Shown here one piece after another: positions 37,890-57,812 of a stretch of 64,000 nt of DNA. A program made the translations under genes and the position numbers. The DNA is taken from contig CACYVC010000010.1 of the NCBI GenBank assembly GCA_902777835.1, positions 1-64,000 of the forward strand, read 5' to 3'. Every line of letters starts with the position of its first letter. Within the stretch, counting starts at the first letter, position 1. This DNA comes from an uncultured Bacteroidales bacterium (GTDB lineage Bacteria; Bacteroidota; Bacteroidia; Bacteroidales; Muribaculaceae). The notes below the pieces were generated by a model. That model was not told where the DNA came from and did no database searches. It saw nothing but the letters and a program-made list of their open reading frames with translations.

Positions 37890-37894
37890 CAAAG

Positions 37895-38080: not shown

Positions 38081-38128
38081 GAGACGAAACATGTAAACGA
38101 CAATAATTAACCACTTAAACGTCTTATT

Positions 38129-38824
38129 ATGACCACATTTTTCAAAAGTATATTACCTATAGTAATGGCAATTATCGCACTAGGTTGCTATGCACAGACC
38201 AACAAATACGTAGATATAAACGGGTATTACAACTTGATGAATGCCCCTCAAACCAACAGTAAATATAAAGCCCAATCGACAGAGAACGAGGACGGCTCTT
38301 ACACCACAAATATTTACAACGGCAAAAAACTGCTTCAATCATTCAAGCATGAGGCAACATCAGGTGAAGTGCGATTTGCCGATTTGAACTTCGATGGCTA
38401 CGTTGACCTCTTTGTGGGACCAGCTTCTTCGCGCACCTACAACACTATATACCTCTATAACAAGAAAACTGGAAAATTTGTGCCTACACAGAAAGAAGCT
38501 AGTCTCAACGGATTTTTCCTAGTCAACGATAATAAGAAACACTTCGTTAGCATGGGTAGCAACGGCGCCAGCTCAACTATCTATTCAAAATACATCTGGA
38601 ACGGCAATAAACTAGAAGTCTCTGAGTCGCTCATGGTGTTTAGCGACCCAAGCGAGTATGCTGAAAATGGCGTCACAACAAAATTCACACTCATCAAGGG
38701 CAATGACTTCTACAGCCTTAAATCGATAGGCTGCGTGAAGTTGAGAACCAACAAATTCAATAAACTTCCCAAAGAGTGGCAAATAATCATATATTCATTT
38801 GATGATATGTATTACCAACTATGA
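38129..38824 (+). CDS. Secreted XAC2610/VCBS-like protein, paralogue 3
   Basis: 231 aa. A signal peptide ends near CYAQ (residue 22). Core VRFADLNFDGYVDLFVGPA is followed by RTYNTIYLY, then the conserved GSNGASSTIYSKYIWNGNKL region, closely similar to paralogue 1 (GLSSGGASSTYYTKYIWKGN). The intact C-terminus is KLPKEWQIIIYSFDDMYYQL. It overlaps the zinc-ribbon gene by ATGA, so the two are translationally coupled. Confidence 0.68.
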   Translation: MTTFFKSILPIVMAIIALGCYAQTNKYVDINGYYNLMNAPQTNSKYKAQSTENEDGSYTTNIYNGKKLLQSFKHEATSGEVRFADLNFDGYVDLFVGPASSRTYNTIYLYNKKTGKFVPTQKEASLNGFFLVNDNKKHFVSMGSNGASSTIYSKYIWNGNKLEVSESLMVFSDPSEYAENGVTTKFTLIKGNDFYSLKSIGCVKLRTNKFNKLPKEWQIIIYSFDDMYYQL

Positions 38825-38988
38825 CAAACAATAAATGCCCCTATTGTGGAGCAACTTTGCAGAAGACGCAAGGCTACAACTTTGTGTGTGAATACTGCGG
38901 AAAAACAACCCCAGTTGATGCTCAAACCAGGGCTGCGATTGATGCTGCAAGAAACGCTAAGCAACAGCAAATAGCAATGGCGCAACAG
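38818..38988 (+). repeat. 171-bp duplication, copy 2
   Basis: Counterpart of 37895-38065, with about 97 percent identity. Confidence 0.9.
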
Positions 38989-39762
38989 CGGGCAATTAAT
39001 GATAGATTTCAAAAGAAAACAAAAAAGGGCTGTTGGATTGCTATAATCATTGCTATCTGTGCAATATCTATTCCTTCTGGTATTAGTATTTATTCTAGCT
39101 ACAAAAAGAAACGTGATAAAGCCGAAGAGCAAGAAAAAATCGAGAAAGTACAACAAGATATTTTATCGAGCAATCCTAATTCAGTTTACGTTGCGCCATC
39201 CGACATTTTCATAACCAACAATAAAGAACTCATAGGACATCTTAATCAAGACCTAATCACGACTCTCAAACAGAAGGGGTATGTTGAAGATGGAGCACTA
39301 ACCTATTCCTATTATGTAAACGGCAAACCAAAAGAAAAGAATTCATCAGTTTATAACTCCACAAAGCCATTAATCACGGTTGAAATCAATTCCTATAAAC
39401 CTATCACTAACTACAGCGAAAGGCTTAATGAAACCGACGCTGTTCATAGTGTTGCTATAATTATTGCCAACCAAGACATAAGAAAAGCCTATGAAAACAG
39501 TTTTAAAAAAGACCTGAGAAACATTGGGTTTGGCAATAAACCTAATTATGATTTCAGGATTAAACTTAAAAGTTCTTTAGAAATGGATGATTTCGACCTC
39601 ATTAGGTTTGGGACACAAAAAACGATAATAGACACTACATTTTCATCAGAATATTATACTAGCACTGAAACACATATTATCCCTAATTGGGAAGGCGTGA
39701 AATGCGGAGAAAAATATTCCTATGAGAATAAAATAGAATGTGTCGCGTTTAGAGAATTCTAA
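38821..39762 (+). CDS. Zinc-ribbon single-pass membrane protein
   Basis: 313 aa. N-terminal zinc ribbon with two CxxC knuckles (CPYCG and CEYCG, residues 6-26), a helical linker, a membrane helix (about 71-92: CWIAIIIAICAISIPSGISI), a charged coiled segment and a C-terminal domain of about 200 residues with no recognised family. The predicted topology puts the zinc ribbon in the cytosol and the C-terminal domain in the periplasm. That is the same plan as the last gene of the SrfB/SrfC cluster 17 kb downstream. Confidence 0.68.
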   Translation: MTNNKCPYCGATLQKTQGYNFVCEYCGKTTPVDAQTRAAIDAARNAKQQQIAMAQQRAINDRFQKKTKKGCWIAIIIAICAISIPSGISIYSSYKKKRDKAEEQEKIEKVQQDILSSNPNSVYVAPSDIFITNNKELIGHLNQDLITTLKQKGYVEDGALTYSYYVNGKPKEKNSSVYNSTKPLITVEINSYKPITNYSERLNETDAVHSVAIIIANQDIRKAYENSFKKDLRNIGFGNKPNYDFRIKLKSSLEMDDFDLIRFGTQKTIIDTTFSSEYYTSTETHIIPNWEGVKCGEKYSYENKIECVAFREF

Positions 39763-41615: not shown

Positions 41616-41645
41616 TTTGTCTATGCAAAAAAAATAATAATTTTG
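41616..41645 (+). promoter_or_regulatory. Promoter of the SrfB/SrfC cluster
   Basis: TTTG at 41616-41619 and TAATTTTG at 41638-41645, spaced 18 bp. Predicted start about 75 bases before the first ATG. Confidence 0.68.
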
Positions 41646-41727: not shown

Positions 41728-44700
41728 ATGGACTATTCACTAATCGCCAATTCTGGCATTCAACTACTGTCGAAGCGCATTGACATCAACCTCAACGCGG
41801 GGTTCAAGTGCCGCTTCGCCGAGTCGTTCGACGACGAGCGCTTTCAGTGGAAACTGGAATTTGCCTACACCCTGAGTAACCAGATTGTGGTGCTCACATC
41901 GCAGCTGCGAGAGAAAGGGTATCTCGACAACGACAACAAGCTCACCACGAGCGAGGCGGTGATTCTCGCCAACCCCGAGGTGCAGCAGTTCAATGTTGCC
42001 GAAAACGAGGAGGATAGCCTTGGCATCTTCTTCTCTAAACTTGCTGCCAACAACAAGTTCCTGAGCCATTACTTCAATGTGTGGCTACCAATGCCGTTTA
42101 TTGAGAAAGATGAGACTGGCGACTACAAGAAGGGACCATACAACTGGTGCAAATTCATGATTGTGCCTCGCGAGACCAATGCCGGCATCCTCACTGCCGA
42201 CGTGGTGCTGGCCTTCGACACACAGGCGCGCTACAACACCATGGATGCCTATAAAGAATATCCCGTGTTTATGAGCGATGGCGAGACCGAGAAGATATTT
42301 GGTCTGTGCGGCAATGAGCGCCAGCTCATCGACTACTGCACATGGAACAAGAATTGGGTGCGCGACTACCTAATGGAAATCGCCTACCCCGACGCCAAGA
42401 ATTTCGACGTACTTGAACTCAAGGACGGCAGGCACAAATATGAGTTCCTCGCCACCTACCTGATGCTTATCAAGTACCTGAGCAGTCTCGACGACTTCTT
42501 CCCCACCGTTAAACTCATGCGCGATCGCGACGTGAACATCGTCAACGTGGAGATGATTATCGACATTGGCAACTCGCGCACCTCGGCACTGCTCTTCGAG
42601 AACAACAATTTCACACAAGACTTCACCAAGGTTGATCCACTGCGACTGCAGAACTTCACCCATGTGATACTCCCCAACGGTGACCTCAACCGTGTGGAGG
42701 AGACCTTTGATATGCGACTCGCGTTCCGCAAAGTGACTATAGGCAAGAATATCGCTGGCAGCAATCAGTTTGTGTGGCCAAGCATCATCAGGCTGGGACG
42801 TGAGGCTAACTACCTCAACCACGAGGCAACAGCGCTCAATCTGGGCCTGGAGACACTCTCCACCAACTCTAGCCCTAAGCGCTACTTGTGGGACAACAAG
42901 CGCACCGAGAACGAGTGGCGCTTCATCAACATTGGTGACGAGAACTACTCGCTGCCACCCATCATTGAAGGCCTCACCTGCTTCATCAACGACGACGGCA
43001 CCTACAATGCCGAGGGCTATGGCATTGGGGCGCACTACTCGCGCCGCTCGCTCATGACGCTCGCATTCATTGAGATTATAGAGCAGGCCATTACCCAAAT
43101 CAACAGTTTCCAGTCGCGCGAGCGCCATGATCTGCGCAACACTCCGCGCCGACTCGAGCGGGTCATCATCACCTGCCCCACAGCGATGTCGCGAGTGGAG
43201 CGTCAGGCCCTCTACAGCAGCTTTAGCGATGCGGTAAAAATCATCAATTCCTATCACCACATCATCGACAATAACAGCATTGCCTTGCAAATGCAGGTGA
43301 TTCCCGGCAACCAGCCACGACGCTACGACGATGATGAGCACAAGCAGTGGTACTACGACGAGGCCACCTGCTCGCAATTCGTGTATCTCTACGCGCAATT
43401 CTGCGAGCGCTACAAGAACCGCAGCGACCTCTTCTTCAAGCTCTATGGCAAGAAGCGCGACATCGACGGCGTTCCTTGCGACACCCTCAAGGTGGGCTCA
43501 GTAGATATTGGCGCCGGCACCACCGACGTGATGGTGTGCCAATATCGCTACAACGAGAGCAATCCCTCACAAATCAGTCCTAACCCCATCTATTGGGACA
43601 GCTTCAACTTGGCTGGCGACGACATGCTCCAGCAACTGGTGCAGAATGTAATTATCGAGGGTTCGAGCGGCATCCTCTACCGCCACCTCACCGAGAAGAT
43701 GGGCAAGAGTCACCAAGAGGCTTATAAGGTTCTTTATCACTTCTTCGGTCAGGACAACAATATGATGACCTTCAAAGACCGCATTATGCGCCGCGACTTT
43801 AACATGCAGGTCAATGTCCCCGTCATGTACCGCTTCCTCAACCTGCTCAGCGAGGGAGAGCGATATCTCGAGATTGGCTACGACGAGATGTTTGGCGACA
43901 GCAAGCCCAGCGACATCGTGTGCGAGGCCTTTAAAGAGCGTTTCGGGTTTGAACTCAGCGAGGTGGTATGGACCTACGACCACAACGTGCTCTCGCAGCA
44001 TGTGGAGAAGTCGCTCGACTCGCTCATAGAGTCAATTTCCACCCTGCTCTATGCCCACGATTGCGACATAGTGGTACTATCGGGACGTCCCACAATGCTC
44101 AAGCCCATCAAGGACTGCTTCCTCAAGTACTTCCCTGTGAGTCCCAACCGACTCATCGTTCTTGGCAAGTACCGCATTGGCCGCTGGTATCCTTTCAAAG
44201 ACGAGAATGGCTACATGCACGACACCAAGAGCATCGTGCCAGTGGGTGCCATGATTGGCTACCTAGCATCGATGGCGGGCGGTCTCAACGAGTTCTCACT
44301 CGACTTGACCAACCTCAGCGACAAACTAGCGCCCACCACTGAGAGTTTCTACAAGATGGGCGGCATACCAAAAGAGGAGTGCATTATCACTCCTACCATC
44401 AACAATGGCCGCATTACCATCAACTCCTTCCCGTGCTACATCGGAGCCAAGCAGTTTGACATCGGCATCTATCCGCTAAGGCCGTTCTATGTGCTCGAAA
44501 TTGACAACCGACGCATCAAGGAGCGTATCAGCAAGGGCAAGACACTCACCCCCGAACAGCTGCAGCGCATGCTGCGCGACTACCGCGATGAGTTGTTCAA
44601 GAAGGGCCCATTCACCTTTGAGATAGAGCGTGAGGCCTACGATGAGGACAAGGAGCTCATAACCATCGCATCGGTTACCGGCAGCGACGGCGAGGAACTC

Positions 44701-44826
44701 AAGACCGACGACTTTATGCTGCAAGTGCAAAGTATCAACGACCCACAATGCTACTGGCTTGACTCAGGAGAATTTAACTTGAATATTGCAACCACCGACT
44801 TAAACGAGTTCACAGTTCAGAGTTAA
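41728..44826 (+). CDS. SrfB-family protein (ASKHA-type ATPase)
   Basis: 1032 aa homologue of the SrfB virulence-factor family first named in Salmonella. It contains two phosphate-binding loops of the actin/Hsp70 superfamily: IIDIGNSRTSALLFE (Asp279) and SVDIGAGTTDVMVCQY (Asp593), the latter followed by the family-typical FNLAGDDMLQQLVQ. A VLSGRPT segment near 784 fits an adenosine-site motif. RYLWDNKRTENEWRFIN is also family-like. No signal peptide or membrane helix, so cytosolic. The molecular role of SrfB is unknown; ATP-dependent conformational switching is inferred. First gene of a nine-gene co-directional cluster. Confidence 0.85.
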   Translation: MDYSLIANSGIQLLSKRIDINLNAGFKCRFAESFDDERFQWKLEFAYTLSNQIVVLTSQLREKGYLDNDNKLTTSEAVILANPEVQQFNVAENEEDSLGIFFSKLAANNKFLSHYFNVWLPMPFIEKDETGDYKKGPYNWCKFMIVPRETNAGILTADVVLAFDTQARYNTMDAYKEYPVFMSDGETEKIFGLCGNERQLIDYCTWNKNWVRDYLMEIAYPDAKNFDVLELKDGRHKYEFLATYLMLIKYLSSLDDFFPTVKLMRDRDVNIVNVEMIIDIGNSRTSALLFENNNFTQDFTKVDPLRLQNFTHVILPNGDLNRVEETFDMRLAFRKVTIGKNIAGSNQFVWPSIIRLGREANYLNHEATALNLGLETLSTNSSPKRYLWDNKRTENEWRFINIGDENYSLPPIIEGLTCFINDDGTYNAEGYGIGAHYSRRSLMTLAFIEIIEQAITQINSFQSRERHDLRNTPRRLERVIITCPTAMSRVERQALYSSFSDAVKIINSYHHIIDNNSIALQMQVIPGNQPRRYDDDEHKQWYYDEATCSQFVYLYAQFCERYKNRSDLFFKLYGKKRDIDGVPCDTLKVGSVDIGAGTTDVMVCQYRYNESNPSQISPNPIYWDSFNLAGDDMLQQLVQNVIIEGSSGILYRHLTEKMGKSHQEAYKVLYHFFGQDNNMMTFKDRIMRRDFNMQVNVPVMYRFLNLLSEGERYLEIGYDEMFGDSKPSDIVCEAFKERFGFELSEVVWTYDHNVLSQHVEKSLDSLIESISTLLYAHDCDIVVLSGRPTMLKPIKDCFLKYFPVSPNRLIVLGKYRIGRWYPFKDENGYMHDTKSIVPVGAMIGYLASMAGGLNEFSLDLTNLSDKLAPTTESFYKMGGIPKEECIITPTINNGRITINSFPCYIGAKQFDIGIYPLRPFYVLEIDNRRIKERISKGKTLTPEQLQRMLRDYRDELFKKGPFTFEIEREAYDEDKELITIASVTGSDGEELKTDDFMLQVQSINDPQCYWLDSGEFNLNIATTDLNEFTVQS

Positions 44827-44884
44827 AAGTTCAGAGTTCCACGATAAACGATAAACGACCAACGATAAACGATCAACGACAACT
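44827..44884 (+). repeat. Intergenic word repeats between SrfB- and SrfC-like genes
   Basis: After the stop: GTTCAGAGTT words. Before the start: five imperfect ACGATAAACG/ACGATCAACG words. Confidence 0.7.
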
Positions 44885-47677
44885 ATGAACATCAATCAAT
44901 ATCTTCACATTGTAGAGAAAGCCATTTCATGGCAATCTAATGTCCCCGATAGCGAGAGGCAGAACTACCTTGAGCAGCTGGTAAACCTTCGTCGTGCGTT
45001 CAAGAAAATCCAGTTTGCCGCCGATGAGCGATGCTCCACCGCCGCCTTTGGCGAGAGCCAGATGGGCAAATCCTATCTCGTGAGCGCGCTGATGAGCGAC
45101 CCCGGCAAGCCCTTCACCGTCACCGACGGCCGCCGTGAATACAACTTCATCGACGAGATAAACCCCAGCAATCCCAACTCGCGCGTAGAGGCCACTGGTG
45201 TGGTGACACGATTCACCTCTAGCACCGACCCCGCCGTTCCCGAAGGATACCTCAAAGCACGCCTGCTGTCGGTTGCCGATATCATCCTAGTCTTGTGTGA
45301 AGCCTATCACACACAGACCGACTATGACAACTCCGAGATTAAGAAAATCGACTATATTCGCCAATACTGCGACTCCGTTGGCGTGTCGTCGGTACCAAAT
45401 CCCTCACCCATCCTCACCCAGGACGACGTGATGGACATCTACGACTACCTGCGCAACTCCACTATGAAGCAGCGTGTCGCCAATCTCACCGACCCAGAGT
45501 CGGGGCTGTTTGCGTTCCTCTTGTTCAACGTGAACCGCCTCAGCGATGACCAACTCATTTCGGCTATCAAGCTGCTATGGTTCGACAATCCATCCATCAA
45601 CCGCCTCTTCGACACCCTCATCACAGCCTACCGCTCCATAAGGTTCAACTCCACGGTGTATGTTCCCTTTGATGCGGTGCTCAAGAAGCATGGCACGCTG
45701 CTCGACGTGGCTCGCCTCGATGAGATTTATGACGAAAGTGAGATAGAACTTCCCGACTATCGCCCCACCACCATTGTCACCACCCAGCAGGGTATGTCAA
45801 TAGAGATGAACAAGGGCGAACTCAGCGCTCTCGTTGCCGAGCTCTACATGTCGCTGCCCACCCTCGAGAGCGAGACACGCAACTTCCTATCATGTCTCGA
45901 CATCCTCGACTTCCCCGGCGAGCGACGTCCCGAGAACATGGCCAGCGAGAAGCTCACCAATGGCAAGAACCTCTCGGTGGTGCTGCGACGCGGCAAGGTG
46001 ACCTACCTCTTCAATCGCTACAGCGACACCAAGCGCATCAGCTCCCTCATGCTCTGCCACAACAATATGCAGAGTGCCGAGAGCAAAATGGGCATTGTCC
46101 TCGAGAACTGGGTTAATAAGAACGTGGGGGAGACTGCAGCTCAGCGCGACACTTTCATGCACGACACACAAATGTCGCCTCTATTCATCATCAGCACATT
46201 CTTCAACCTCGACCTGGAATATCAAACCAACGACTCACCCGACAAACTCGAAGAACTACGACGTCGCTGGGACAACCGCTTCAAGATTGTACTTGAGAAA
46301 GAAGTGCTGCGCGCCAATACCGACGAGGACCAAACTCACTGGTTCAACCAGTGGACCACTGGCCATCCCTTCCGCAGTATTTTCATGCTTCGCGACTTTA
46401 AGTACTCCACCAAGTCGTTTGACGGCTACAATCCTAACACCAAGTCGCCCGAGACCGAAGAGATTATCCCAGCGGCATTCCCCAACTTCATGCAGTGCCT
46501 CAAGGACTCTTTCGTGAACTATGACTTCGTACAGCAGCATTTTGTTGACGCCAGTCAGGCATGGGATAGCGCAGCAACCCTCAACAACGACGGTACCAAG
46601 CCCATTATAGCCGCTCTCAACCAGCTAGCGCCACGCGTTAAGCAAGCCCGCGACAATATGTTTGGCGAGGAGATAACTCGACTCGTGGCTTCTCTTAAGA
46701 GTCTGCTCACCAAGTACTACCACAGCGGTTCGGCCGACGACGAGATACGCAAGGCTAAACGCCAAGCAGCGCAAGCCAATCTGCAGTTGGCAAAGATTGA
46801 AGGTGCCGACAAGGCTGCCTTTGGAAAGATGCTCGACATAATGATGATTGACGAGCCTCACCTCTATGAGATAATTCACAACGCACTCAACAACACGGTG
46901 GCCACGACATCGCAGCCCGACCCAGAGATGGAACTGTTCATTAGGTTCGGACTCGACCCCAAGGCATCACGCGCCGATAATCTCACTAGGTTGTGCGACG
47001 CTCTTGGCGTGGATACCGAGGAAGAGTGCATCGAGATGCTATCAACTGAGGGATTTGACATCAACAAGCTATTGAACGCCAATTTTATGGCCAACTCGCA
47101 ATCAGACCAAGTGGCTACGATGGTAGAGAACTTCTGGATTGACCAGTTCCTTACTCAATATGCTGTGCCCAAGTGCAAAGACAACATCCCCGCTGTGAGC
47201 GACATGACCACCAACCTCATAAGGCTCTACCGCTTCCTGGGAATGCATGACCGCATCACTAAGCGCATCGACGAGTATATAACCACCTTCGACAAAGACA
47301 GTGCTGTGGCTATCATTGCCGACTATCTGGCAATGGAATTCAACCACTTCGTCACTACCTTTGGCTTCGATTACCTCGACAATAAGCATCTCAACAACAT
47401 CCTCGAGAAAAATGCCAGACTCAAGCTCAACATCAGCGAGGATATGCTCTCGGCACACAACACCTCCAGCGGAGTGAAGCTGCTCGAAGAACTAGACCAC
47501 GCCAAGAAGGACAATATCACCGACCGCAAGACTCTCATGCGACTGCCACGCTATGGGTTTATGCTCAGATGGATTGAGTATCTGAAAGTGGGATACATCC
47601 TCTCGTGCGACCTTCCCGACTATGACATCGCCGCCAACAAGCGCCTCGGGGAAATCATTAACGAGATTGACGCTTAA
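44885..47677 (+). CDS. SrfC-family protein (P-loop NTPase)
   Basis: 930 aa homologue of SrfC (putative bacterial virulence factor family). Walker A FGESQMGKSYLVSAL (G56-S63) is followed by the family-specific INPSNPNSRVEATGVVTRF, which aligns in kind with the NPPGGKESTGLVTRF region of enterobacterial SrfC. A second nucleotide-related segment is CLDILDFPGERRPE (DxPG, G3-like). The C-terminal half is helical and likely a dynamin- or coiled-type stalk. Cytosolic. SrfB and SrfC are almost always encoded together, as here. Confidence 0.85.
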   Translation: MNINQYLHIVEKAISWQSNVPDSERQNYLEQLVNLRRAFKKIQFAADERCSTAAFGESQMGKSYLVSALMSDPGKPFTVTDGRREYNFIDEINPSNPNSRVEATGVVTRFTSSTDPAVPEGYLKARLLSVADIILVLCEAYHTQTDYDNSEIKKIDYIRQYCDSVGVSSVPNPSPILTQDDVMDIYDYLRNSTMKQRVANLTDPESGLFAFLLFNVNRLSDDQLISAIKLLWFDNPSINRLFDTLITAYRSIRFNSTVYVPFDAVLKKHGTLLDVARLDEIYDESEIELPDYRPTTIVTTQQGMSIEMNKGELSALVAELYMSLPTLESETRNFLSCLDILDFPGERRPENMASEKLTNGKNLSVVLRRGKVTYLFNRYSDTKRISSLMLCHNNMQSAESKMGIVLENWVNKNVGETAAQRDTFMHDTQMSPLFIISTFFNLDLEYQTNDSPDKLEELRRRWDNRFKIVLEKEVLRANTDEDQTHWFNQWTTGHPFRSIFMLRDFKYSTKSFDGYNPNTKSPETEEIIPAAFPNFMQCLKDSFVNYDFVQQHFVDASQAWDSAATLNNDGTKPIIAALNQLAPRVKQARDNMFGEEITRLVASLKSLLTKYYHSGSADDEIRKAKRQAAQANLQLAKIEGADKAAFGKMLDIMMIDEPHLYEIIHNALNNTVATTSQPDPEMELFIRFGLDPKASRADNLTRLCDALGVDTEEECIEMLSTEGFDINKLLNANFMANSQSDQVATMVENFWIDQFLTQYAVPKCKDNIPAVSDMTTNLIRLYRFLGMHDRITKRIDEYITTFDKDSAVAIIADYLAMEFNHFVTTFGFDYLDNKHLNNILEKNARLKLNISEDMLSAHNTSSGVKLLEELDHAKKDNITDRKTLMRLPRYGFMLRWIEYLKVGYILSCDLPDYDIAANKRLGEIINEIDA

Positions 47678-47756
47678 GCCGGTTAGAAGTTACGGGTAAG
47701 TACACCAAACTAAAAACTGAAAACTCAAAACTATAAACCATAAAGAGTTAACTATT

Positions 47757-50315
47757 ATGCCAAACGTGAAAAATAAAGTGCGACTGTGCACCACCTCCCC
47801 CATGAGCATATTTATTGTGGAGAACCTGGGTGGCACACCGTTCTACAACAGGCGAGACGACTTTGAGAGATTGCTTGACAAATATGTCACCAATCCTCGC
47901 TATAAAAACTTCTTCGCCATGCCCTATTTTGAGCCCGCACTACACGGGTTGGAGTGGCATGTTGACCCCGAGTTTGCTTATGCCGTGAAACTCTCTTCTT
48001 TGGTAGGCACACAGCAATACTTTGCCGCCAAGCAATATATTGCCGAAGCAACCAGCTACTTCCGCACCCTCGCAACACAAGTTAACGAGTGGGAGCAGCC
48101 CTACTTTAACTGCCTCATCAAGTATATTGACTCTACCGATATCGACGAGATGGCATTTGTAGCAAATTCGCAGGTGATTTTGGGTGTGTGGGGCATCAGG
48201 TCGATGCCTGGTCAGAGCATGAACACCTCTATCGTCACCAATGTTGAGGACACGCGCCTGCACAGGGTATCGTTTGAGACTAACAACGCCACCCTGCAAG
48301 GCACCACGTCGTTCATGAGGCGGCATGGCTACAAGCTACACCCAGGCATTGATGTTCCTAAGGTGATTCCCGACGACGGTTTCGTCTTCGTGAGCTGGAT
48401 GCCTTTTGACCCCAACAATGCCCAGGTCAACGAGGACTTGCACTTTGTGGCACAATGCGAGGAGATAAAGACTCCACCGCCATACCAACCCGAGTCCGAA
48501 ACGCTGCCACCACCATTACACGAGTCACGCATGTGTCAAGTGAAATTTGAGAACGGCACCTTTGGCACCCTGAGTGGCACGTCGCCATCGCTCACTGTGC
48601 CCTCGGGCACCGTGCTCACGCCAGCGATGATACCTCTCGTAACACCCCTCAAAGGATACTCCTTCCTGGGATGGGACAAACCTGTGGATAAACCCATAAC
48701 TGGCGACACCACCTTTGTGGCACAATATTCTAAGTTGCCTTGGTGGAAACGCTGGTTTGCCGACGGCTGCCTGCGCTGGTTGCTGCTGGCACTGCTCGCC
48801 CTGTTACTGTTCTTGCTACTAGCCATCGTACTCACCCGCTGCACCTCGTGCACAGGAACCTTTGGTGGCTGTGTGCGCGACGCTCACGACATGATAATGG
48901 GTGCCGACACTACCGACACCATACGTGGCCGCACGCGCGTCATTATCCATGACGAACGAGTAATTAACCGCATACGTACCGACGATGGCCGCTACATCGA
49001 CGACAATGGCAATAGCCGTGGCGTGAGAGACATTTCCGACGACTTGGACGGCGATGACCCAGTCTCTCCACCGCTAGTTGACGATAATGGTGATCCAATC
49101 TCCGACCGAGGCCGCCTCAACCCCAACGATCCCAACAGTCCCGAGGTGGTGAGCGACCGCCTCAACATCTTCTTCGATAACGACAACCCCGATTTCCAGA
49201 AGTTTGCCACCGAGTTCAAGCGCAACTATCCCGGCGAGCAATACAAGATTATAGGCAAAGACAAGAACACCCGTTGGTTGCTGGTGCAGGTCCCGCCTGA
49301 GGAACGCCCAAAGATTCGCGATGAGCTACCCTCAAAGATACCATCAATGAAGTTTAAAGTAGTTGATGAGGTAATTATGGCGGGCGGGCAGATGCCAGGC
49401 TCAAGGTCCAATCTACCCAAAGGATGGCACCTCGATGCTGCCCACATCAAGCAGGCATGGCAAATATCTAAAGGCATAGCCAACGTAACGGTGGCTGTCG
49501 TTGACGACGGCATCGACTTGAACCATGAGATGTTCTCAGGACGCATCACCAAGCCTTACAATGTGTTTCGCTGCGATGACCATTTGAGCTCAGGAGTAGG
49601 ACATGGCACCCATGTGGCTGGCCTCGCCGCTGGCAGCACTGCTCATGTGAACCAAGGTGCCGCTGGAGTAGCCCCAAACTGCAAAATCATGCCCGTGCAG
49701 GTGTTTGACAATGGCCAATGCACCATTTCAGGAGTGATACGCGGCATCATGTATGCCATACGCAACAACGCCGACGTCGTGAACATATCCATTGGCACCG
49801 CCTATCCTGTGGAACTGGGCAACATGGTACCCATCGAGGAGCAGAAGGAGGTGGCACGCAGCTATTACAAACCCGCCGAGGACGTGTGGAAATGGGTCTT
49901 TGAGCAGGCGGACAAGAAAAACACAATACTCGTGTTTGCCGCTGGCAATAGCCATCTTCTGGCTGCCATGCAGCCGCAACTAAGGTCGAAGAACACCATC
50001 AACGTTGGGGCGTTAGGCAAGAACAACACCATGACTGAGTGGTCAAACTTTGGTAGCACCGTCTATGTCACAGCACCTGGCGAGGGAATCTACAGCTCCA
50101 TGCCAGGCAACCGCTATGAAGCACTCGACGGCACCAGCATGGCAGCGCCCATCGTCACTGGCGTAGTGGCGCTGATGAAATCGGTAAACAAAAACGTCAC
50201 CGTGAGTCAAGCTCTCACGGCGTTTACATCTACCGGCGTGAACATTCGCAACGGCAATCAGAGTGGCCCTGCAATTCAGGCCGACAAAGCAGTGAATAAA
50301 GTCAAGCAAAGATAG
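47757..50315 (+). CDS. Membrane-tethered subtilisin-like (S8) protease
   Basis: 852 aa. N-terminal cytosolic region (1-170) of unknown fold, then two InlB-type beta repeats (about 165-240 and 258-325; VSFETNNATLQGTTS and VKFENGTFGTLSG start them). A membrane helix (342-363) follows WWKRW (positive-inside). An acidic Asp/Arg/Asn-rich linker comes next, then a propeptide-like domain (about 465-540). The S8 protease domain (about 560-852) has Asp583 in VVDDGID, His616 in GHGTHVAG, oxyanion Asn731 in AAGNS and Ser794 in DGTSMAAP. All catalytic residues are present. Predicted active site in the periplasm. Confidence 0.92.
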   Translation: MPNVKNKVRLCTTSPMSIFIVENLGGTPFYNRRDDFERLLDKYVTNPRYKNFFAMPYFEPALHGLEWHVDPEFAYAVKLSSLVGTQQYFAAKQYIAEATSYFRTLATQVNEWEQPYFNCLIKYIDSTDIDEMAFVANSQVILGVWGIRSMPGQSMNTSIVTNVEDTRLHRVSFETNNATLQGTTSFMRRHGYKLHPGIDVPKVIPDDGFVFVSWMPFDPNNAQVNEDLHFVAQCEEIKTPPPYQPESETLPPPLHESRMCQVKFENGTFGTLSGTSPSLTVPSGTVLTPAMIPLVTPLKGYSFLGWDKPVDKPITGDTTFVAQYSKLPWWKRWFADGCLRWLLLALLALLLFLLLAIVLTRCTSCTGTFGGCVRDAHDMIMGADTTDTIRGRTRVIIHDERVINRIRTDDGRYIDDNGNSRGVRDISDDLDGDDPVSPPLVDDNGDPISDRGRLNPNDPNSPEVVSDRLNIFFDNDNPDFQKFATEFKRNYPGEQYKIIGKDKNTRWLLVQVPPEERPKIRDELPSKIPSMKFKVVDEVIMAGGQMPGSRSNLPKGWHLDAAHIKQAWQISKGIANVTVAVVDDGIDLNHEMFSGRITKPYNVFRCDDHLSSGVGHGTHVAGLAAGSTAHVNQGAAGVAPNCKIMPVQVFDNGQCTISGVIRGIMYAIRNNADVVNISIGTAYPVELGNMVPIEEQKEVARSYYKPAEDVWKWVFEQADKKNTILVFAAGNSHLLAAMQPQLRSKNTINVGALGKNNTMTEWSNFGSTVYVTAPGEGIYSSMPGNRYEALDGTSMAAPIVTGVVALMKSVNKNVTVSQALTAFTSTGVNIRNGNQSGPAIQADKAVNKVKQR

Positions 50316-50329
50316 TATTCAGAAAGATT

Positions 50330-51322
50330 ATGGGCAATAAAAAGTTTAACTTCGCTTTTGTCATCTCTATCATCGTTCTTCTCATCTATTCCTACATCGT
50401 GTTTATGGGAATAGTGTATTGGAAAGATGGTGACATTGTGCAAGGCATCATCTACTCAGTGGCATTGATTGCGGTGACTCTCGCGTGCATCGTCATCATG
50501 TGCAAGGCCAAAGCCACACGATGGAAGAAGACTGGCAACATAGTGCAGATTGTGTGTGGAGCGGTCATCCTTGTTGCGCTGGCGCTGAGCACTATGCCGT
50601 TTGCCCATTTCATCAACCTCGTAGTTAAGCAGAAAGAAATTTCCCAATCATTTGAGAAAGCCCACTTGTATGGTTCTCAGAGCGCGGTAGCCTACAACAA
50701 CTACGTGAAAGAACGCGAAGCAAAGACACGTGACTTCCTCAACGCCGTTGACGCAGGACATGGAGTGAGAAACCCTTCGGAATATGAGGCAATCTTCGGA
50801 CTGCCAGGAAACGACAGCAACACCGAAAAAATTGACCGCATGATAAACAGCCTCCACAAAATTCTACTACCCGAATCGGTAACACGTGCCAGTGATGAGG
50901 CACTCAATAATCTGGATAAAGGCGCAAAGATGAGTGTGTGGAACATCGCCATGCCGCAATACATAAACAGCATCGACAAGATGGTAAAGAATAATGTCGA
51001 GACTTTCAGCAACCTCAGCAAGAAAGCCCATGGCTACAAGGGCGACAACGACTACCCGCCGTTCACCTACCAGCAATACACCAACCAGAATGCGCAGCTC
51101 AAGGAAATGCTCACTCACATGTCGATGCCATCAATCGTTTCCATCATCGCAGCGCTGGTGTGCTTCGCCTTCATGCTGTTGCCCTACTACCTCGTGGAGC
51201 GTGACCTGGCCCAAGGCACTAGCGGCAAGCGCAATCCGCTTGCCTCCTCACCCTCTACTCGCCCCAATGGCAGTCAGCGCCGCAGCCGCCTCAGCGAGAG
51301 AGAAGAACGAAAAAACCAATAG
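50330..51322 (+). CDS. Four-helix membrane protein of the SrfB/SrfC cluster
   Basis: 330 aa, not in a family I recognise. Three closely spaced membrane helices at the N-terminus (about 8-28, 36-58, 66-94), a soluble helical region of about 170 residues with many Lys and Asn, a fourth helix (about 265-288) and a basic Ser/Arg-rich C-terminal tail. The loop is probably periplasmic. Fourteen bases after the protease gene. Confidence 0.65.
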   Translation: MGNKKFNFAFVISIIVLLIYSYIVFMGIVYWKDGDIVQGIIYSVALIAVTLACIVIMCKAKATRWKKTGNIVQIVCGAVILVALALSTMPFAHFINLVVKQKEISQSFEKAHLYGSQSAVAYNNYVKEREAKTRDFLNAVDAGHGVRNPSEYEAIFGLPGNDSNTEKIDRMINSLHKILLPESVTRASDEALNNLDKGAKMSVWNIAMPQYINSIDKMVKNNVETFSNLSKKAHGYKGDNDYPPFTYQQYTNQNAQLKEMLTHMSMPSIVSIIAALVCFAFMLLPYYLVERDLAQGTSGKRNPLASSPSTRPNGSQRRSRLSEREERKNQ

Positions 51323-51422
51323 TTTATACTCGCATAAAAAGGTTAGTGTTAGCAACTGAAAACTAAGAACTAAAACTGATAACTCATAACTGATAACTGA
51401 CAACTGATAACTGACAACTCAA
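51323..51422 (+). repeat. Intergenic word repeats before the second GTPase gene
   Basis: GGTTAGTGTTAGC after the stop, then about eight imperfect AACTGATAAC/AACTGACAAC words up to the start codon. Confidence 0.75.
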
Positions 51423-53060
51423 ATGAATATGCCCACTAAAGAATATGTATTAAGTATAGCTCACGGCGTGCCAGTGCCCAACCTCATAAGGTCGATTCAG
51501 CGAGGCATAATTACCCTCGACGAATTGAAGAGAATACAACTTGCTCCCGAGAAACTCGAAGTCATTGAGCAGAAACTGAGAGCCGAAGAAGACCAGTTAT
51601 GGGCCAAAGCATGTCAAAGCGGAGAAGCAGCCGACTTCTTCAGCTATCTGACAATATATCCCAACGGACTCTTTGCTGAGCCATGCCGGCAGGCGCTGAT
51701 ATCGGGAGAGGAGCACTTCTGGAAAGGTATTCTCGACAGTGGCTCTGTTCCCCTGCTAGAGCAGTATCTTAAATTTTACGAGCCTCTTGGAGGCGCTCAC
51801 ATCTATGAGTGCCAAGAAATGATTCAAGACCCCGACTGGGTGCAGGTGAAGAAACAACCCACACTCGTCAACATCGAGGCCTACCAACAAGCCAATCCCG
51901 GCAAGCACCACATTGAGATTGCTCAGATGCTAGATGCCATCACCGACGATATCGATTGGCAAAAAGCACTGCACACTGACGACACGCCAGCCTTTCAGGC
52001 CTATCTTGCTGCGCATCCACAGGGCAAATTTAAAGCTCTAGCACAAGAGCGCATCGATGCTGCTGCAGGCCATGACGAGTTTGTAGCTAATATGAACAAC
52101 GACCTCAAGAATGCCGACGAGATACAAAAAGCCGTGACTAGCAAGATAATAAGCTGGGAGGACGTGATTAAGGTTTATGGGGCCGAGCGAGCACAGGCCA
52201 TCCAGAACTTCGTTGGGCGCAACATCCAGCCCAACCCCAACATCCCCGTCGCACTCACTAAGGACTCTACCGAGGTGTATTTCTGGGGCACTCCGTCATC
52301 GGGAAAGACCTGCGCGCTAGGCTCAATATTGTGTGGTGCCATGAACAACTACTATCTTGAGCCACAGCAGTGCCAAGGCTATCACTACATGACTCAACTG
52401 CGCAATGTGTTTGACTCCCACAACAAATATTGCAGTCTGCCACCCAGCACCATCGTCAATGTGATACAAGAAATGGTATTCACCATCATCGATGAAAAGA
52501 AGAAGCGTCACCGAGCCACCTTCATCGACATCGCTGGCGAGATATTCCGTTCTATTTACTACAACATGAACCACATGTTCCTCGACCAGGAGCATAAGGA
52601 GACCCTCGCTCACGTGATGAAATTCCTCCATGACAACAGCAACCCCAAGATTCACTTCTTTGTGGTGGAATATGGCGCCGAGAGCAACCAGTGGGAAGAT
52701 ATTTACATGCGTGATTACCTGCAAGCCTGCTCGCTCTACATCAAGGACAACAAGATTCTGAATAACTCATCGGGAGTGTATGTCCTCGTCACCAAGTGCG
52801 ACAAGATGCATTGCCCCGACGAGATGATTGTTGACAACGCCGAGCAATATGTGCAAAAGAACCTCAGTTCGTTCTACAAGAACCTGCAGGACGCCTGCAA
52901 TGATGCCTGCATCAACGATTTCAAGGTGATACCCTTCTCTATTGGAGAGGTGTTTGCCGGCAAGATATGCTCCTACGACGACAGCTTCATCGACGACGTG
53001 ATTGATGTGCTCATCGCTAAGACACCTGCACTGAAAAAAAATAATTTTTTGAGAATGTGA
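51423..53060 (+). CDS. P-loop GTPase-like protein with TPR-like N-terminal repeats
   Basis: 545 aa. The N-terminal half (about 50-215) has three or more copies of the pattern F-x3-Y-L-x3-P-x-G-x-F-x4-A (FFSYLTIYPNGLFAEPC, AFQAYLAAHPQGKFKALAQE), known from solenoid-type scaffolds. The C-terminal half is a P-loop domain: Walker A WGTPSSGKT (G289-T296), a G3-like DIAGE (Asp369-Glu373) and a G4-like TKCD (T457-D460) preceded by a hydrophobic strand. That combination indicates a GTPase, possibly of the double-GTPase/conflict-associated type, but family assignment is uncertain. Cytosolic. Second nucleotide switch in the cluster. Confidence 0.72.
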   Translation: MNMPTKEYVLSIAHGVPVPNLIRSIQRGIITLDELKRIQLAPEKLEVIEQKLRAEEDQLWAKACQSGEAADFFSYLTIYPNGLFAEPCRQALISGEEHFWKGILDSGSVPLLEQYLKFYEPLGGAHIYECQEMIQDPDWVQVKKQPTLVNIEAYQQANPGKHHIEIAQMLDAITDDIDWQKALHTDDTPAFQAYLAAHPQGKFKALAQERIDAAAGHDEFVANMNNDLKNADEIQKAVTSKIISWEDVIKVYGAERAQAIQNFVGRNIQPNPNIPVALTKDSTEVYFWGTPSSGKTCALGSILCGAMNNYYLEPQQCQGYHYMTQLRNVFDSHNKYCSLPPSTIVNVIQEMVFTIIDEKKKRHRATFIDIAGEIFRSIYYNMNHMFLDQEHKETLAHVMKFLHDNSNPKIHFFVVEYGAESNQWEDIYMRDYLQACSLYIKDNKILNNSSGVYVLVTKCDKMHCPDEMIVDNAEQYVQKNLSSFYKNLQDACNDACINDFKVIPFSIGEVFAGKICSYDDSFIDDVIDVLIAKTPALKKNNFLRM

Positions 53061-53103
53061 AGATTAACACTTAACACTTGACACTTAAAACTAACTCTTA
53101 ACT

Positions 53104-54729
53104 ATGTCAAACTACAACTATCTCAAAATAGACTTCTACGGACAGTTTAACGACGACACGATACACAAGCTCACCTATCCCGAGGCATTTAACCCCATTG
53201 ACACCTCGTCACTGCTGTGGCTCAATCCCATTACCGATCCACGAGCCATAAGGACCTTGTTCCCCATGGCAAAATATGGCTACAAGGTGCACCGCGACGC
53301 TAACGGCACCTATTTCTCATTGCTCACACGTTACGAGCGTGACGCGCGTCAGGGCTATGTCGCCATCACTGTGATGATAGGTGCGAAATATGAGTCAATA
53401 ATCAACGGCAAGGCAATTTTTGCTCTACTGCACCTGCTCAAGACCAATGTGCTCGACACCAATAATATCACGGCAGTAGCAGTAGAGCAATGCATCATCG
53501 CCAGCCAGATGCCCGCCCTCAACGCCGCACCACTGAGCATCAAACCAGTGCAGAACTATGGCCAGCAGGCTTTCAGAGTGTATAGCTCTAACGAGGAACT
53601 CTACGACATATTCCAATTCCCAAATCAGGCGGAATATGACCAATATGGCGAAGTGTTCCTTATCAATAAGCTATGGTGCAACAGCACCGTGCCTGGTGTG
53701 GCACTGCTCACCTCACCCATCATTAAGACCTATAGCGTGACCAAGACCAACAACGTGAAGTGCGACAGCACCACGCAAACCGGCAACACTCTCAATATCA
53801 CCTACAACAAGCCAGGCTATGCGCCGCTGGTTGTACCTGTCACCATCAATGGCATCAACAACCAATATGTGCGCTACGATGGAGCCAATATCACCATTCT
53901 AACCCCCGACGAACTGCCATTCAAGCAACGCGTGAGCATGCGGGTGAGAATCAATGGTTACAGCTATAGCGACAACTCGGTGCAAGCGTCGGTGGGTGGT
54001 GCGCCCATGCACTATTCGTCACAGCTTAACGCTTATGGCACCGATGTCACTGATGATATGCTCTCGGAGGGCGATATCAAGGTGAGTGTTAATATCAACG
54101 ACCCATTGCTTGACCCCACTGGCAAGTCGCAACGCAGAACAGCAATTTTCAAGTGGCTGATGCCTATACTCGCCTTCGTTCTGGGAGCAGCGATTGCTGC
54201 TGGCATCACATGGTATTTGATGAAAGATGACGTCGATGACGATACTGCTGGGCAACCACAGGCCATCGAAATTACCGACAAGGTGAACCTTGACAACCAA
54301 GAGCACGACATCAACTACATGAATGAGAACAACACGTGGCAACTTGACAGCCTCAAATCGCAGAAATACAAGCATTTTGCTCAAGCCATCAACAATGGCA
54401 ATGATAAAGAGCTTATCAAGTGTCTTGACGATTTGAAGAACGATAAAAAACCTGTAAACCCTATTTTGGAATCTATCGTCGAGAAGATTAAGCAAGATCC
54501 TGAAACAGCTAAAGGCATCTTGAAGAATCCCGACCCTGCAAGCAAGACTGTCAATCTTGAGAAGATCTTGAAAGACCTAAGCACCAACATCAATAAAGCT
54601 GTGGAACCACAACCTGCTGTAGAAAGTCAGGTCGGTGGCAACGGCACCAATAATGACCCTCAAACAAATCAACAAGCGTCGAGGGACGTTACAAGAGATA
54701 TCCCTTTCATTAATCAACAACAGAACTAA
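53104..54729 (+). CDS. Single-pass membrane protein of the SrfB/SrfC cluster
   Basis: 541 aa, family not recognised. The first 345 residues are soluble, with a beta-sandwich stretch around 245-335. A membrane helix (about 351-373: KWLMPILAFVLGAAIAAGIT) follows a basic QRRT segment, placing the large N-terminal part in the cytosol. An acidic, helical C-terminal tail of about 165 residues rich in Asn, Asp and Gln would be periplasmic. A-rich words precede the start codon. Confidence 0.65.
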   Translation: MSNYNYLKIDFYGQFNDDTIHKLTYPEAFNPIDTSSLLWLNPITDPRAIRTLFPMAKYGYKVHRDANGTYFSLLTRYERDARQGYVAITVMIGAKYESIINGKAIFALLHLLKTNVLDTNNITAVAVEQCIIASQMPALNAAPLSIKPVQNYGQQAFRVYSSNEELYDIFQFPNQAEYDQYGEVFLINKLWCNSTVPGVALLTSPIIKTYSVTKTNNVKCDSTTQTGNTLNITYNKPGYAPLVVPVTINGINNQYVRYDGANITILTPDELPFKQRVSMRVRINGYSYSDNSVQASVGGAPMHYSSQLNAYGTDVTDDMLSEGDIKVSVNINDPLLDPTGKSQRRTAIFKWLMPILAFVLGAAIAAGITWYLMKDDVDDDTAGQPQAIEITDKVNLDNQEHDINYMNENNTWQLDSLKSQKYKHFAQAINNGNDKELIKCLDDLKNDKKPVNPILESIVEKIKQDPETAKGILKNPDPASKTVNLEKILKDLSTNINKAVEPQPAVESQVGGNGTNNDPQTNQQASRDVTRDIPFINQQQN

Positions 54730-54749
54730 CTACTTAGGGTTGCTCTATC

Positions 54750-55577
54750 ATGAGAAAGGCTATTAAAATAGGACTTATAGCACTTGCCGCACTGGGTATC
54801 GGGGCGCTGATATGGCTCACGTTGCTTTATCACGCCAACGATATCAAGAAGGTGAATGTGGATGATTCTTATTTCACAGCTCAAATCAAGGAGCAAGCCG
54901 AAAGGGAGATTACCGATGAGCAGTCTTATGACTATATAATGCAATCCTACAACACCATGATGCAGGAAGTGAGCGACGCTGCCTATCTGGAGAATATTGA
55001 TGCCAGCGAAGTTGCAAACTGCCGCAAGCTGCTCGCCTACAGATATGCCCCTAAACTCACTAGTTATGCCCGTCAGTGCTTTAAGAACCACGAATGGGAT
55101 GTGAGCGTGATCAACATGCTGCGCAACGAGGCTCAAAACCTCATCAATGCAGGCATACTGCCCAATGACTCGCGCGACTTGCCTAAGCTGCACGAAATCA
55201 TCAAGACGGTTAACGACTATCACGCAGCCGTGGCGGCAACTAAAGTGGGAGGCATTACCACGGTTGCTGCAGCGCAAGCGGCTATCGCTCGAGCCAACTC
55301 CTACAAACGTGCACCGCTTACCAACTGCCGCAGTCTTGCCGATGCTCTCAACGCCGTGCCCGAAAAAGCCAAGAAATCGCTCGCACAGAACATCGCTGCC
55401 GCATGCCAGCGCCACAGCGATAGCACCGATGCACTGATAACACGCATCAATGACTATGAGCATGCATTTGGCTACAACTCACAACTCTCACAAGAGAAAC
55501 AGCGGCTATTGGAAACTAAACAAAAAGCCCAAGGCCAAGAAACGCAAAACATCATTGACTATAATGTTGAAATATAA
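54750..55577 (+). CDS. N-terminally anchored helical protein of the SrfB/SrfC cluster
   Basis: 275 aa, unknown family. N-terminal helix (about 6-30) as a signal anchor after basic RKAIK, then an entirely helical periplasmic domain with many Ala, Asn and Glu, resembling lipoprotein-type coiled scaffolds. Twenty bases from the previous gene. Confidence 0.62.
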   Translation: MRKAIKIGLIALAALGIGALIWLTLLYHANDIKKVNVDDSYFTAQIKEQAEREITDEQSYDYIMQSYNTMMQEVSDAAYLENIDASEVANCRKLLAYRYAPKLTSYARQCFKNHEWDVSVINMLRNEAQNLINAGILPNDSRDLPKLHEIIKTVNDYHAAVAATKVGGITTVAAAQAAIARANSYKRAPLTNCRSLADALNAVPEKAKKSLAQNIAAACQRHSDSTDALITRINDYEHAFGYNSQLSQEKQRLLETKQKAQGQETQNIIDYNVEI

Positions 55578-55607
55578 ATAACGAACTAGAATAAAGGATT
55601 TACGATT

Positions 55608-56312
55608 ATGGCAAAGAACAATACACCTAAACCGGTAACACCCAGAACCGAAGAGGAGAACCGCAAGCGCCGACAGGCGTGGATGTGTGGCATTCTTGCT
55701 GTGCTCAATCTCATAGCACTGGCATTGCTCATTATGCTACCCTACAACTGCAAGGGCACCTACGACCGCGGCGGCAACGACACCATAGTAGTTACCGACA
55801 CAACAATACATGAGCGAAGAATCACTAACGAAGACCAACAAGTAAGCGATGATATTGACGAGGCTGTGGAAGACGAAGGCGGCGACACCGACGCTTTCAT
55901 GAGATTCTCAATCGTGTGGAACGAGAACGGTCGTGACCTCGTCGATCTCGATGCTCACGCTATAGAGCCTAATGGGACACACATCTACTTCGACAACTAC
56001 CGCGCTCCACGTCGCACTCGCTGTGGTGGTCAGCTCGATGTTGACATGCAAAGCCCACGTGGCAGAGGTGTGGAAAATATCGTTTGGCCCAGTGCTAACC
56101 AACTTGATGACGGTGATTATGAGTTCGCTATCGACAACTACAACAACCGACAGTTTGGAGTGTGTGTTGCAAAACTCAAAGTGGGTGATAAATCATTCAT
56201 CTACAAAGTGGGACACTTTAGTAAAAGTAACCCCGTGGAAATCGCAGTTGTCACCATCAAAAACCACCAAGTGGAAAACATCAAGCAAATTCAGCGACCC
56301 ACATCAGAGTAA
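55608..56312 (+). CDS. Membrane-anchored protein with a DUF2135/YfaP-like domain
   Basis: 234 aa. Basic N-terminus (ENRKRRQAW), membrane helix (about 28-48), acidic linker and a beta-sandwich domain (about 98-225). It has LDAHAIEPNGTHIYFDNYRA and GGQLDVDMQSPRGRGVENIV, which match the DUF2135/YfaP pattern (DLDLHVxEPxGxxIYY, LDVDV). Such domains are found with von Willebrand-like and surface proteins. Predicted periplasmic; likely a binding or sensing module of the cluster. Confidence 0.75.
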   Translation: MAKNNTPKPVTPRTEEENRKRRQAWMCGILAVLNLIALALLIMLPYNCKGTYDRGGNDTIVVTDTTIHERRITNEDQQVSDDIDEAVEDEGGDTDAFMRFSIVWNENGRDLVDLDAHAIEPNGTHIYFDNYRAPRRTRCGGQLDVDMQSPRGRGVENIVWPSANQLDDGDYEFAIDNYNNRQFGVCVAKLKVGDKSFIYKVGHFSKSNPVEIAVVTIKNHQVENIKQIQRPTSE

Positions 56313-56363
56313 TCGCCACAATAGACACAAACGCACGAATACACATAAAAACCTTCTCACTTT

Positions 56364-57695
56364 ATGAAATGCATAAACTGTAATCAAGAGATTGACGATG
56401 GCAACAAGTTCTGCAACTTCTGCGGCACGATGCAGCCACTTGACAGGGAAGCCTACGAGAAAGAGCATCCCAATTTTGCCACGGCAATGACCAATCAGCC
56501 TGCCAATAGTAACCCGTCGCCACTCCCTCCACAGCAGGGCACACCCATGTCACCACCAACTGGTGTGCCTGGTGGTGAGGCGATTCAGGCTAAATCTAAT
56601 AACGTGTACGTAGTGCCACAACCACCGATTGCTGGGGGCAACAACTCCACCGATAGCGGCATGATGCAGTGCCCTGATTGCGGCCGCATGATTCCCAAGG
56701 ATTCACTTTTCTGCCCTCATTGCCGATGCCCATTTGTTGACCCAAGCGAACAATACCATGAGGATTCGCGCATTCCTGTTCCTCCCGCACCAAGTCATAG
56801 AGAGACTCCACTCCCTCAAAAGCCTAAAGACAAAGGCATGTCGGGTTGGGCAAAAGCCCTCCTTACATTGTCGATTATCATGATGCTGGGGGCAATAGCC
56901 GGCGGAGTATATTACTTTTTATTCTACAACAAAGTGGATAAATTCCGTCCCGACGATGATATGGTGACATTCTCACGCAATGGAGGCGAGAAAACAGTAA
57001 CATTCACTACCGATGCTAAAGAATTTAGTGTTACAAAACATCCTGAATGGGTGATCGTTACCACAGGCAACAAAGAGATTACCATTATATGCCAACCTCT
57101 TGAGTCCTACGAAGACCGAGAGGGAACCATCAAGCTCAAAGCTGGTGACAAAGAAGCAAAAATCACCGTTAAGCAGAGCGCTATTGCTACCTATTTGCGA
57201 CTCTCGCAAGATATAATAAAAATTGGATACAATGGTGAAGAGGTACCCATCGAGATTGATACCGATGGCGCTCCATCTTCCATAGATTATTACATTGACG
57301 ACTATTTCATGTGCAGCCTCACCGACAAGTCAAATGCAGGATTTACGGCACGAATTGAGGAAAACACCTACCCGTTGCCACGAGAATGCAGCATCACCAT
57401 CACTAGCGGCAACCAGGAGAGGAAACTAACCATTATCCAGGCAGGAATGTGCGCCAATTGCATGGGCACAGGAAAAGAACCATGTTACAGTTGTGACGGA
57501 GAAGGTCATAACGATTGCAGCAACTGCAATGGCACAGGTTTGCTCTATAATTTATATAACAACGAATACATCAAATGTGAGTATTGTGAAGGACGCGGAA
57601 CCTTCCCCTGCGAAGACTGCGACTCAAAAGGCTACAACACCTGCGAGCAATGCAACGGCACAGGCAATAACTTCACGAGAGAAGAGAGTTTTTAA
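56364..57695 (+). CDS. Zinc-ribbon / transmembrane / BACON / DnaJ-zinc-finger protein
   Basis: 443 aa, last gene of the cluster. Zinc ribbon 1 (CINC...CNFC, residues 3-20), a proline-rich linker and zinc ribbon 2 (CPDC...CPHC, about 110-127). A membrane helix (about 166-188) precedes a BACON-type beta domain (about 196-275, VTFSRNGGEKTVTFTTDA), then a second related beta domain. A C-terminal DnaJ-like zinc-finger region has repeated CxxCxGxG (CMGTG, CDGEG, CNGTG, CEGRG, CDSKG, CNGTG) from about 371 to 438. Zinc ribbons are predicted cytosolic, BACON and DnaJ finger periplasmic. No J-domain is present. Confidence 0.83.
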   Translation: MKCINCNQEIDDGNKFCNFCGTMQPLDREAYEKEHPNFATAMTNQPANSNPSPLPPQQGTPMSPPTGVPGGEAIQAKSNNVYVVPQPPIAGGNNSTDSGMMQCPDCGRMIPKDSLFCPHCRCPFVDPSEQYHEDSRIPVPPAPSHRETPLPQKPKDKGMSGWAKALLTLSIIMMLGAIAGGVYYFLFYNKVDKFRPDDDMVTFSRNGGEKTVTFTTDAKEFSVTKHPEWVIVTTGNKEITIICQPLESYEDREGTIKLKAGDKEAKITVKQSAIATYLRLSQDIIKIGYNGEEVPIEIDTDGAPSSIDYYIDDYFMCSLTDKSNAGFTARIEENTYPLPRECSITITSGNQERKLTIIQAGMCANCMGTGKEPCYSCDGEGHNDCSNCNGTGLLYNLYNNEYIKCEYCEGRGTFPCEDCDSKGYNTCEQCNGTGNNFTREESF

Positions 57696-57765
57696 GTGTT
57701 AAGTGTTAAGTTTTAAGTGTTAAGTTTTAAGTGTTAAGTTTGCGCCTGCGGTGCGATAAACGATA
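57696..57765 (+). repeat. AAGTGTTAAG word array after the cluster
   Basis: Five imperfect copies of AAGTGTTAAGTTTT-type words directly after the stop codon, then a GC-rich mini-palindrome and ACGATAAACGATAAACG. Confidence 0.8.
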
Positions 57766-57769
57766 AACG

Positions 57770-57812
57770 AATTAGAACCAATATTGCATTAACGCAACAA
57801 TTGGTTCTAATT
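57770..57812. terminator. Strong bidirectional hairpin terminator
   Basis: AATTAGAACCAAT and ATTGGTTCTAATT are perfect inverted repeats enclosing a second stem TTGC/GCAA. It lies between the convergent cluster and rdgB. Confidence 0.85.

Follow-up and report, generated by a model that had tools for sequence, protein, structure and literature searches.

The srf locus described here lies at positions 41728–57695 of the window, that is, of the whole 64,000-nucleotide stretch of contig CACYVC010000010.1 from an uncultured Bacteroidales bacterium that we analysed. It comprises nine co-directional genes on the forward strand, separated by spacers of 58, 79, 14, 100, 43, 20, 30, and 51 bases, in that order. 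These open reading frames (ORFs) and their spacing (14–100 bases) agree with an earlier annotation made from the nucleotide letters (the sequence-only reading), as does its count of six membrane proteins: a hydropathy scan places transmembrane segments in genes 3, 4, 6, 7, 8, and 9. The first two genes encode SrfB and SrfC, which many genome annotations, as with SrfA, label as virulence factors; a 2025 review gives SrfB and SrfC no function (PMC11942329). We propose, with a probability of about 0.5, that the nine genes are an SrfABC locus of Bacteroidales and that their products form an inner-membrane machine, which would couple envelope damage to periplasmic proteolysis.

Gene 1 (41728–44826, 1032 amino acids (aa)) belongs to the SrfB family (Pfam PF07520, E 6.6e-178, 594.2 bits against a cut-off of 27.1) and gene 2 (44885–47677, 930 aa) is of the SrfC type (PF10139, E 3.7e-101, 340.3 bits against 28.1), so that in both cases the family first suggested came out on top. 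The nucleotide-binding motifs pointed out in the sequence-only reading are conserved as well: SrfB D279 in 53/53 relatives and D593 in 52/53, and the SrfC P-loop, G56-S63, in 49/49. In the predicted fold of SrfB, the stretch from about residue 272 to 868 corresponds to the nucleotide-binding domain of Hsp70, and the protein extends beyond it at both termini. The HSP70 Pfam profile is not among the matches of SrfB up to E 1, and SrfB is at most a distant, predicted Hsp70 relative. The predicted model of SrfC combines a dynamin-type GTPase with a helical bundle, with low whole-model TM-scores, and the protein carries DFPG at residues 342–345. The dynamin Pfam profile is likewise not among the gene 2 matches up to E 1. 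SrfC, a predicted dynamin-like GTPase, resembles the bacterial dynamins (SynDLP, the Campylobacter-type pair, IniA, LeoA, and BDLP) in predicted fold, P-loop, and DFPG switch, but differs in having no sequence-profile match to them and in its partners, here a tethered protease and an ATPase with a predicted Hsp70-like fold. Profile comparison with the PDB gave no convincing solved relative of SrfB or SrfC by sequence; the nanobodies and designed helical proteins that gene 2 matched there were put down to chance, as were two PADLOC matches, SrfB to PDC-M61B (E 0.0019, its only match there) and SrfC to mad8 (in 1 of 37 members, 9.1e-4).

Gene 3 (47757–50315, 852 aa) encodes a subtilisin-type protease (Peptidase_S8, E 2.5e-46) with the full catalytic triad that had been noticed in its translation. 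D583, H616, and S794 are kept in 42/42 aligned members, the histidine being numbered after what we take to be the HGTH motif. The protease domain (about 576–819) is predicted to be periplasmic and follows a transmembrane segment at about 342–360. By profile comparison, the region before this segment (about 1–165) carries an SrfA domain, which the sequence-only reading had missed. The domain first matched two proteins encoded ahead of SrfB in Rhizobium, and a hidden Markov model (HMM) of the N-terminal region then picked up Rahnella SrfA (3.1e-10), Salmonella SrfA (2.6e-10), and a trypsin-like protease of Cereibacter (2.8e-7). When the domain was aligned with 16 SrfA-type sequences in hhalign, the result was 98.1% (E 1.4e-13), against 0.1% and 0.4% for two control comparisons with gene 6. 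A profile built from 20 Bacteroidota sequences matched 15 of 52 chosen annotated coding sequences from eight loci, each time at the N terminus; 14 of these were proteobacterial, with at least one in each of the seven proteobacterial loci, and the other was the S8 protein of Runella. Among 572 reversed or shuffled sequences the same profile gave no match even at E 10, and it matched 4 of 645 other ORFs of the gene-call set at E <1e-3 (47 of these ORFs come from L029, L030, and L033). Among S8 members longer than 480 aa, 34/43 have the domain at both E 1e-3 and 1e-5, 20 of the 43 having served to build the model.

The SrfA domain is not confined to subtilisins. In three of five alphaproteobacterial loci it is carried by a trypsin-like protease (by Pfam in L030, and by annotation and a GNSGG motif in L155 and L156), whose catalytic part is preceded by a hydrophobic segment. 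Thus, two protease folds sit on one adaptor domain in different phyla. SrfA of Rahnella and Ewingella also has a hydrophobic segment after the domain, and the S8 domain of gene 3 stands in place of the C-terminal, cysteine-containing domain of Enterobacterales SrfA. The locus shares with the SrfABC operon the SrfB and SrfC families and an SrfA N-terminal domain followed by a transmembrane segment, but differs in the protease that forms the periplasmic part, in the position of the SrfA-type gene after rather than before SrfB and SrfC, and in an additional four-transmembrane protein, a second GTPase, and a variable tail. Among the matches listed in our literature search, which covered titles and abstract openings and few subscription papers, SrfA is nowhere named a protease-bearing adaptor, and none names SrfC a dynamin or SrfB an Hsp70.

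Genes 4, 6, 7, and 8 have no Pfam match above cut-off. Gene 4 (50330–51322, 330 aa) encodes a four-transmembrane protein of no family. Gene 5 (51423–53060, 545 aa) combines an N-terminal TPR/YfiO-like helical region with a GTPase domain that is probably related to the DO-GTPases. It had been described as a TPR-like/P-loop GTPase; it has invariant residues in its GTPase motifs (P-loop G289-K295, G372-E373, and K458-D460), and YfiO is matched by 2/36 members. The gene itself falls below the cut-off for DO-GTPase1 (E 0.016, 14.9 bits against 27). At E up to 0.01, 5/36 members match DO-GTPase1 and 4/36 DO-GTPase2, the best at 5.6e-8. This type of GTPase can expand: L077 (350–9397) holds four gene 5-type matches, of 235 aa with three transmembrane segments, 548, 459, and 496 aa. 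Gene 6 (53104–54729, 541 aa) has a cytosolic part, a transmembrane segment at about 355–373, and a fast-changing, predicted periplasmic tail, with no Pfam family among 19 members. Gene 7 (54750–55577, 275 aa) has an N-terminal transmembrane segment and a predicted periplasmic part; its PDB profile matches to ribosomal S20 were taken as chance.

Gene 8 (55608–56312, 234 aa) has a transmembrane segment and a domain that had been called DUF2135-like, a call with indirect support and with no Pfam match above cut-off for the gene itself. The domain is fused to the C terminus of the S8 protein in L111 (E 3.8e-10) and L112 (1.1e-9), and to SrfA-domain proteins in the alphaproteobacterial loci L030, L155, and L157; gene 8 is thereby linked with protease and adaptor alike. 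In gene 9 (56364–57695, 443 aa), Pfam finds the zinc ribbon and BACON domains previously read there; the protein has zinc ribbons, a transmembrane segment, BACON domains, and a C terminus rich in CxxCxGxG, as read from the translation.

How much of this gene order is kept elsewhere was examined with HMMs built from the window genes in 46 loci of Bacteroidota whose sequence continues for 9 kb or more past SrfB. This set includes the window and Runella, leaves out L024, L030, L033, and five shorter pieces, and is not one of independent loci, several coming from one genus. SrfC lies within two genes of SrfB in 42/46 loci (L105, where it is the third gene, is scored as missing), S8 within three genes in 40/46, or 40/42 when SrfC is adjacent, the four-transmembrane protein within five genes in 36/46, and the gene 5 GTPase within six genes in 39/46. 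Gene 6 was found in 24/46 loci, gene 7 in 28/46, gene 8 in at least 5/46, and gene 9 in at least 7/46; the last two counts are lower bounds, because in L014 and L016, both of which have gene 8, the ORF selection chose antisense frames instead. The order of genes 1–5 is mostly conserved, and the sequence-only reading passes both checks that it had set itself, on gene order in other genomes and on the top families of genes 1 and 2. The nine genes do not travel as one set: genes 6–9 vary. Most tail genes also change faster than the core. Compared with L014, identity is 94% for SrfB, 92% for SrfC, and 81% for gene 5, against 71% for gene 6 (52% in its predicted periplasmic part), 72% for gene 7, 77% for gene 8, and 57% for gene 9. 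Gene 8 of L087 is an exception, being 92% identical in a locus that lacks genes 4 and 7 and the full gene 6 tail.

Several loci depart from this plan. A second clade of six loci (L020:8266–9240 and five others) has a coiled-coil-like protein of 325–341 aa between SrfB and SrfC. In L102 (1–9541), the place directly after SrfC, which the S8 gene takes in other loci, is filled by a protein of 3180 aa or more that has a single transmembrane segment and no Pfam match at E 0.01. In L103, L106, and L108, SrfC is absent from the genes that follow SrfB, and such an SrfB-only setting may represent a different system.

SrfB scored over cut-off in 10/61 relatives, 8/37 genomes of the genus, 46/397 of the family, 20/344 of the order, and 2/395 of the phylum (own genome included), and because it is present in a minority of genomes at each rank, we regard the locus as accessory. 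These figures rest on genome searches; a single-sequence contig scan gave six close loci. The closest named relatives are metagenome-assembled genomes of Bacteroidales with SrfB identities of 93–95%, three of which come, by title, from the rumen or omasum of buffalo or yak, and further relatives of the locus live in river, freshwater, and plant-root bacteria. A quick tree of SrfB mixes genera and families. Downstream of the operon lies rdgB, and among 12 fetched rdgB neighbourhoods the Srf operon adjoins in one (G001). Elsewhere this place is taken by other genes or, in G010, lies close to the end of the contig; most of these neighbourhoods are unlike one another, although G032 and G026 look similar. 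In G011 and G005 the Srf locus is on another contig, away from rdgB, and in L087 (G586) rdgB adjoins the operon as in the window. Across L143–L154, the rdgB-adjacent segment differs between most fetched species of the genus, as expected for a variable site.

How might such a machine work? Given the predicted folds of SrfB and SrfC and the predicted membrane topology, the periplasmic domains of genes 6–9 could sense a disturbance and signal it across the membrane, where the gene 5 GTPase and the cytosolic SrfA domain would receive it. SrfC, as a dynamin-like GTPase, would then assemble at the site, and SrfB, as an Hsp70-like ATPase, would load, remodel, or release this assembly. The resulting change would return through the SrfA domain and free the protease, which may cut foreign or damaged envelope proteins. 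The sequence-only reading had already suggested that cytosolic ATPase and GTPase switches control periplasmic proteolysis, which fits the comparative and predicted-structure evidence, although the SrfA domain and the predicted Hsp70-like and dynamin-like folds had escaped it.

That the signal is envelope damage is suggested by the neighbours and phenotypes of relatives. In oral Deltaproteobacteria, srfBC stands beside tagQ, ppkA, tagRST, and a Hap-like gene (PMC3608642), and TagQRST senses envelope attack (PMC11323562). In the alphaproteobacterial loci L030 and L157, the genes after SrfC and a vWA gene are of the ABC and SUMF1 types; NCBIfam returns generic ABC ATPases and weak SUMF1-type matches only, and these are likely Tag genes. 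Tag genes are not among the nine window genes, and the other Bacteroidota loci were not searched for them. A marker of the type VI secretion system was found in 0/40 genomes of the genus, which is uninformative on co-occurrence. A srfC mutant swarms poorly, and the same paper cites this defect for a polar srfB mutant or a mutant of the whole operon (PMC4219756).

The swarming defect could also point to constitutive biogenesis, in which the complex matures or exports surface proteins and the protease acts as a mycosin-like maturation enzyme. The best NCBIfam match of gene 3 is indeed the mycosin of type VII secretion systems (TIGR03921, E 2.1e-37), but its 129 bits fall well below the cut-off of 278.75, no other family of that system was found among the nine proteins in Pfam or NCBIfam, and an accessory distribution with changeable tail genes is unlike a housekeeping export route; we consider this rather improbable. 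Host-directed virulence, with SrfA, SrfB, and SrfC as secreted effectors or a tripartite toxin, has been claimed for Salmonella SrfA (PMC11942329) and Xenorhabdus SrfABC (PMC6950479). It appears very improbable here, given the hydrophobic segment of Rahnella and Ewingella SrfA, the predicted tethering of the protease, the resemblance of SrfB and SrfC in predicted fold to cytosolic NTPases, and the river, freshwater, and plant-root habitats of relatives.

Defence against phages or plasmids, in which injection of foreign DNA through the envelope would be sensed and the protease would destroy either the host cell or the apparatus by which the invader enters, draws on the patchy distribution in family and order, the mixed genera in the SrfB tree, and the Runella copy, which lies directly after a BREX operon on plasmid pSP2_1 (L029:1–12730). 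It also draws on a weak match of gene 3 to IetS (35.8 bits against 900), but the likeness to the IetAS anti-phage system is confined to the S8 domain, and Pfam finds no AAA ATPase family among the nine genes. A further argument for defence is that the DO-GTPase systems are proposed conflict systems (PMC7159879). They are alike in the GTPase motifs of gene 5 and in weak profile matches in its relatives, and have membrane parts, zinc ribbons, and a peptidase in common with the locus, which instead has an SrfB/SrfC core; GAP1 had no match among the nine proteins in the Pfam scan, the presence of GAP1 models in that profile set being unchecked. Against defence, the BREX neighbour is a single case, and at E up to 1e-10 the 119 flank ORFs scanned matched 18 PADLOC families and 57 control ORFs matched 14. 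The flanks, of which 119 of 206 ORFs were scanned (the Runella BREX flank being among those left out), are thus not richer than controls, and we reject a defence-island context. SrfB had no match in 50,697 phage records or in a viral contig scan, and on these grounds a viral or phage origin was rejected. Defence is therefore unlikely, and of the roles first floated (envelope defence, conflict, or effector processing), we favour a response to envelope damage over phage defence because of the Tag-like neighbours, the swarming defect, and the unenriched flanks.

More broadly, and tentatively, at somewhat less than an even chance, SrfABC may be a cross-phylum envelope-surveillance machine, in which SrfA-domain adaptors with exchangeable periplasmic cargo, either a protease or a binding module, are driven jointly by a dynamin-like GTPase and a motor resembling Hsp70. 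The Bacteroidales form would add another GTPase and a sensor tail that changes fast. Hsp70 and dynamin also work together in eukaryotic vesicle traffic, and here a bacterial machine would couple the two to proteolysis across the inner membrane. The adaptor domain, the predicted folds, and the tethered protease turn a virulence label into a testable model, which predicts use by non-pathogens and in which the Salmonella and Xenorhabdus phenotypes may arise from envelope physiology.

The flanking signals were also compared with earlier claims. The consensus promoter placed at 41616–41645 does not stand as an E. coli-type site, but a pattern search predicts a Bacteroidetes-type promoter there on the forward strand (TTTG-N17-22-TAnnTTTG); the window contains 13 such sites where 1.4 would be expected, none of them within the operon. 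The strong hairpin described at about 57770–57812 (forward strand) is upheld by a fold z of -5.3; it lies between convergent genes without a classic T run and is a likely terminator. By eye, short direct repeats rich in TTAAG can be seen between the stop of gene 9 and the hairpin (57690–57740). Upstream of the locus, 37158–38824 encodes a tandem pair of paralogues that have a hydrophobic segment and whose relatives are also upstream in L014 and L024, and 38821–39762 encodes a zinc-ribbon-like protein with a transmembrane segment that resembles the N terminus of gene 9 and has a homologue upstream in L087.
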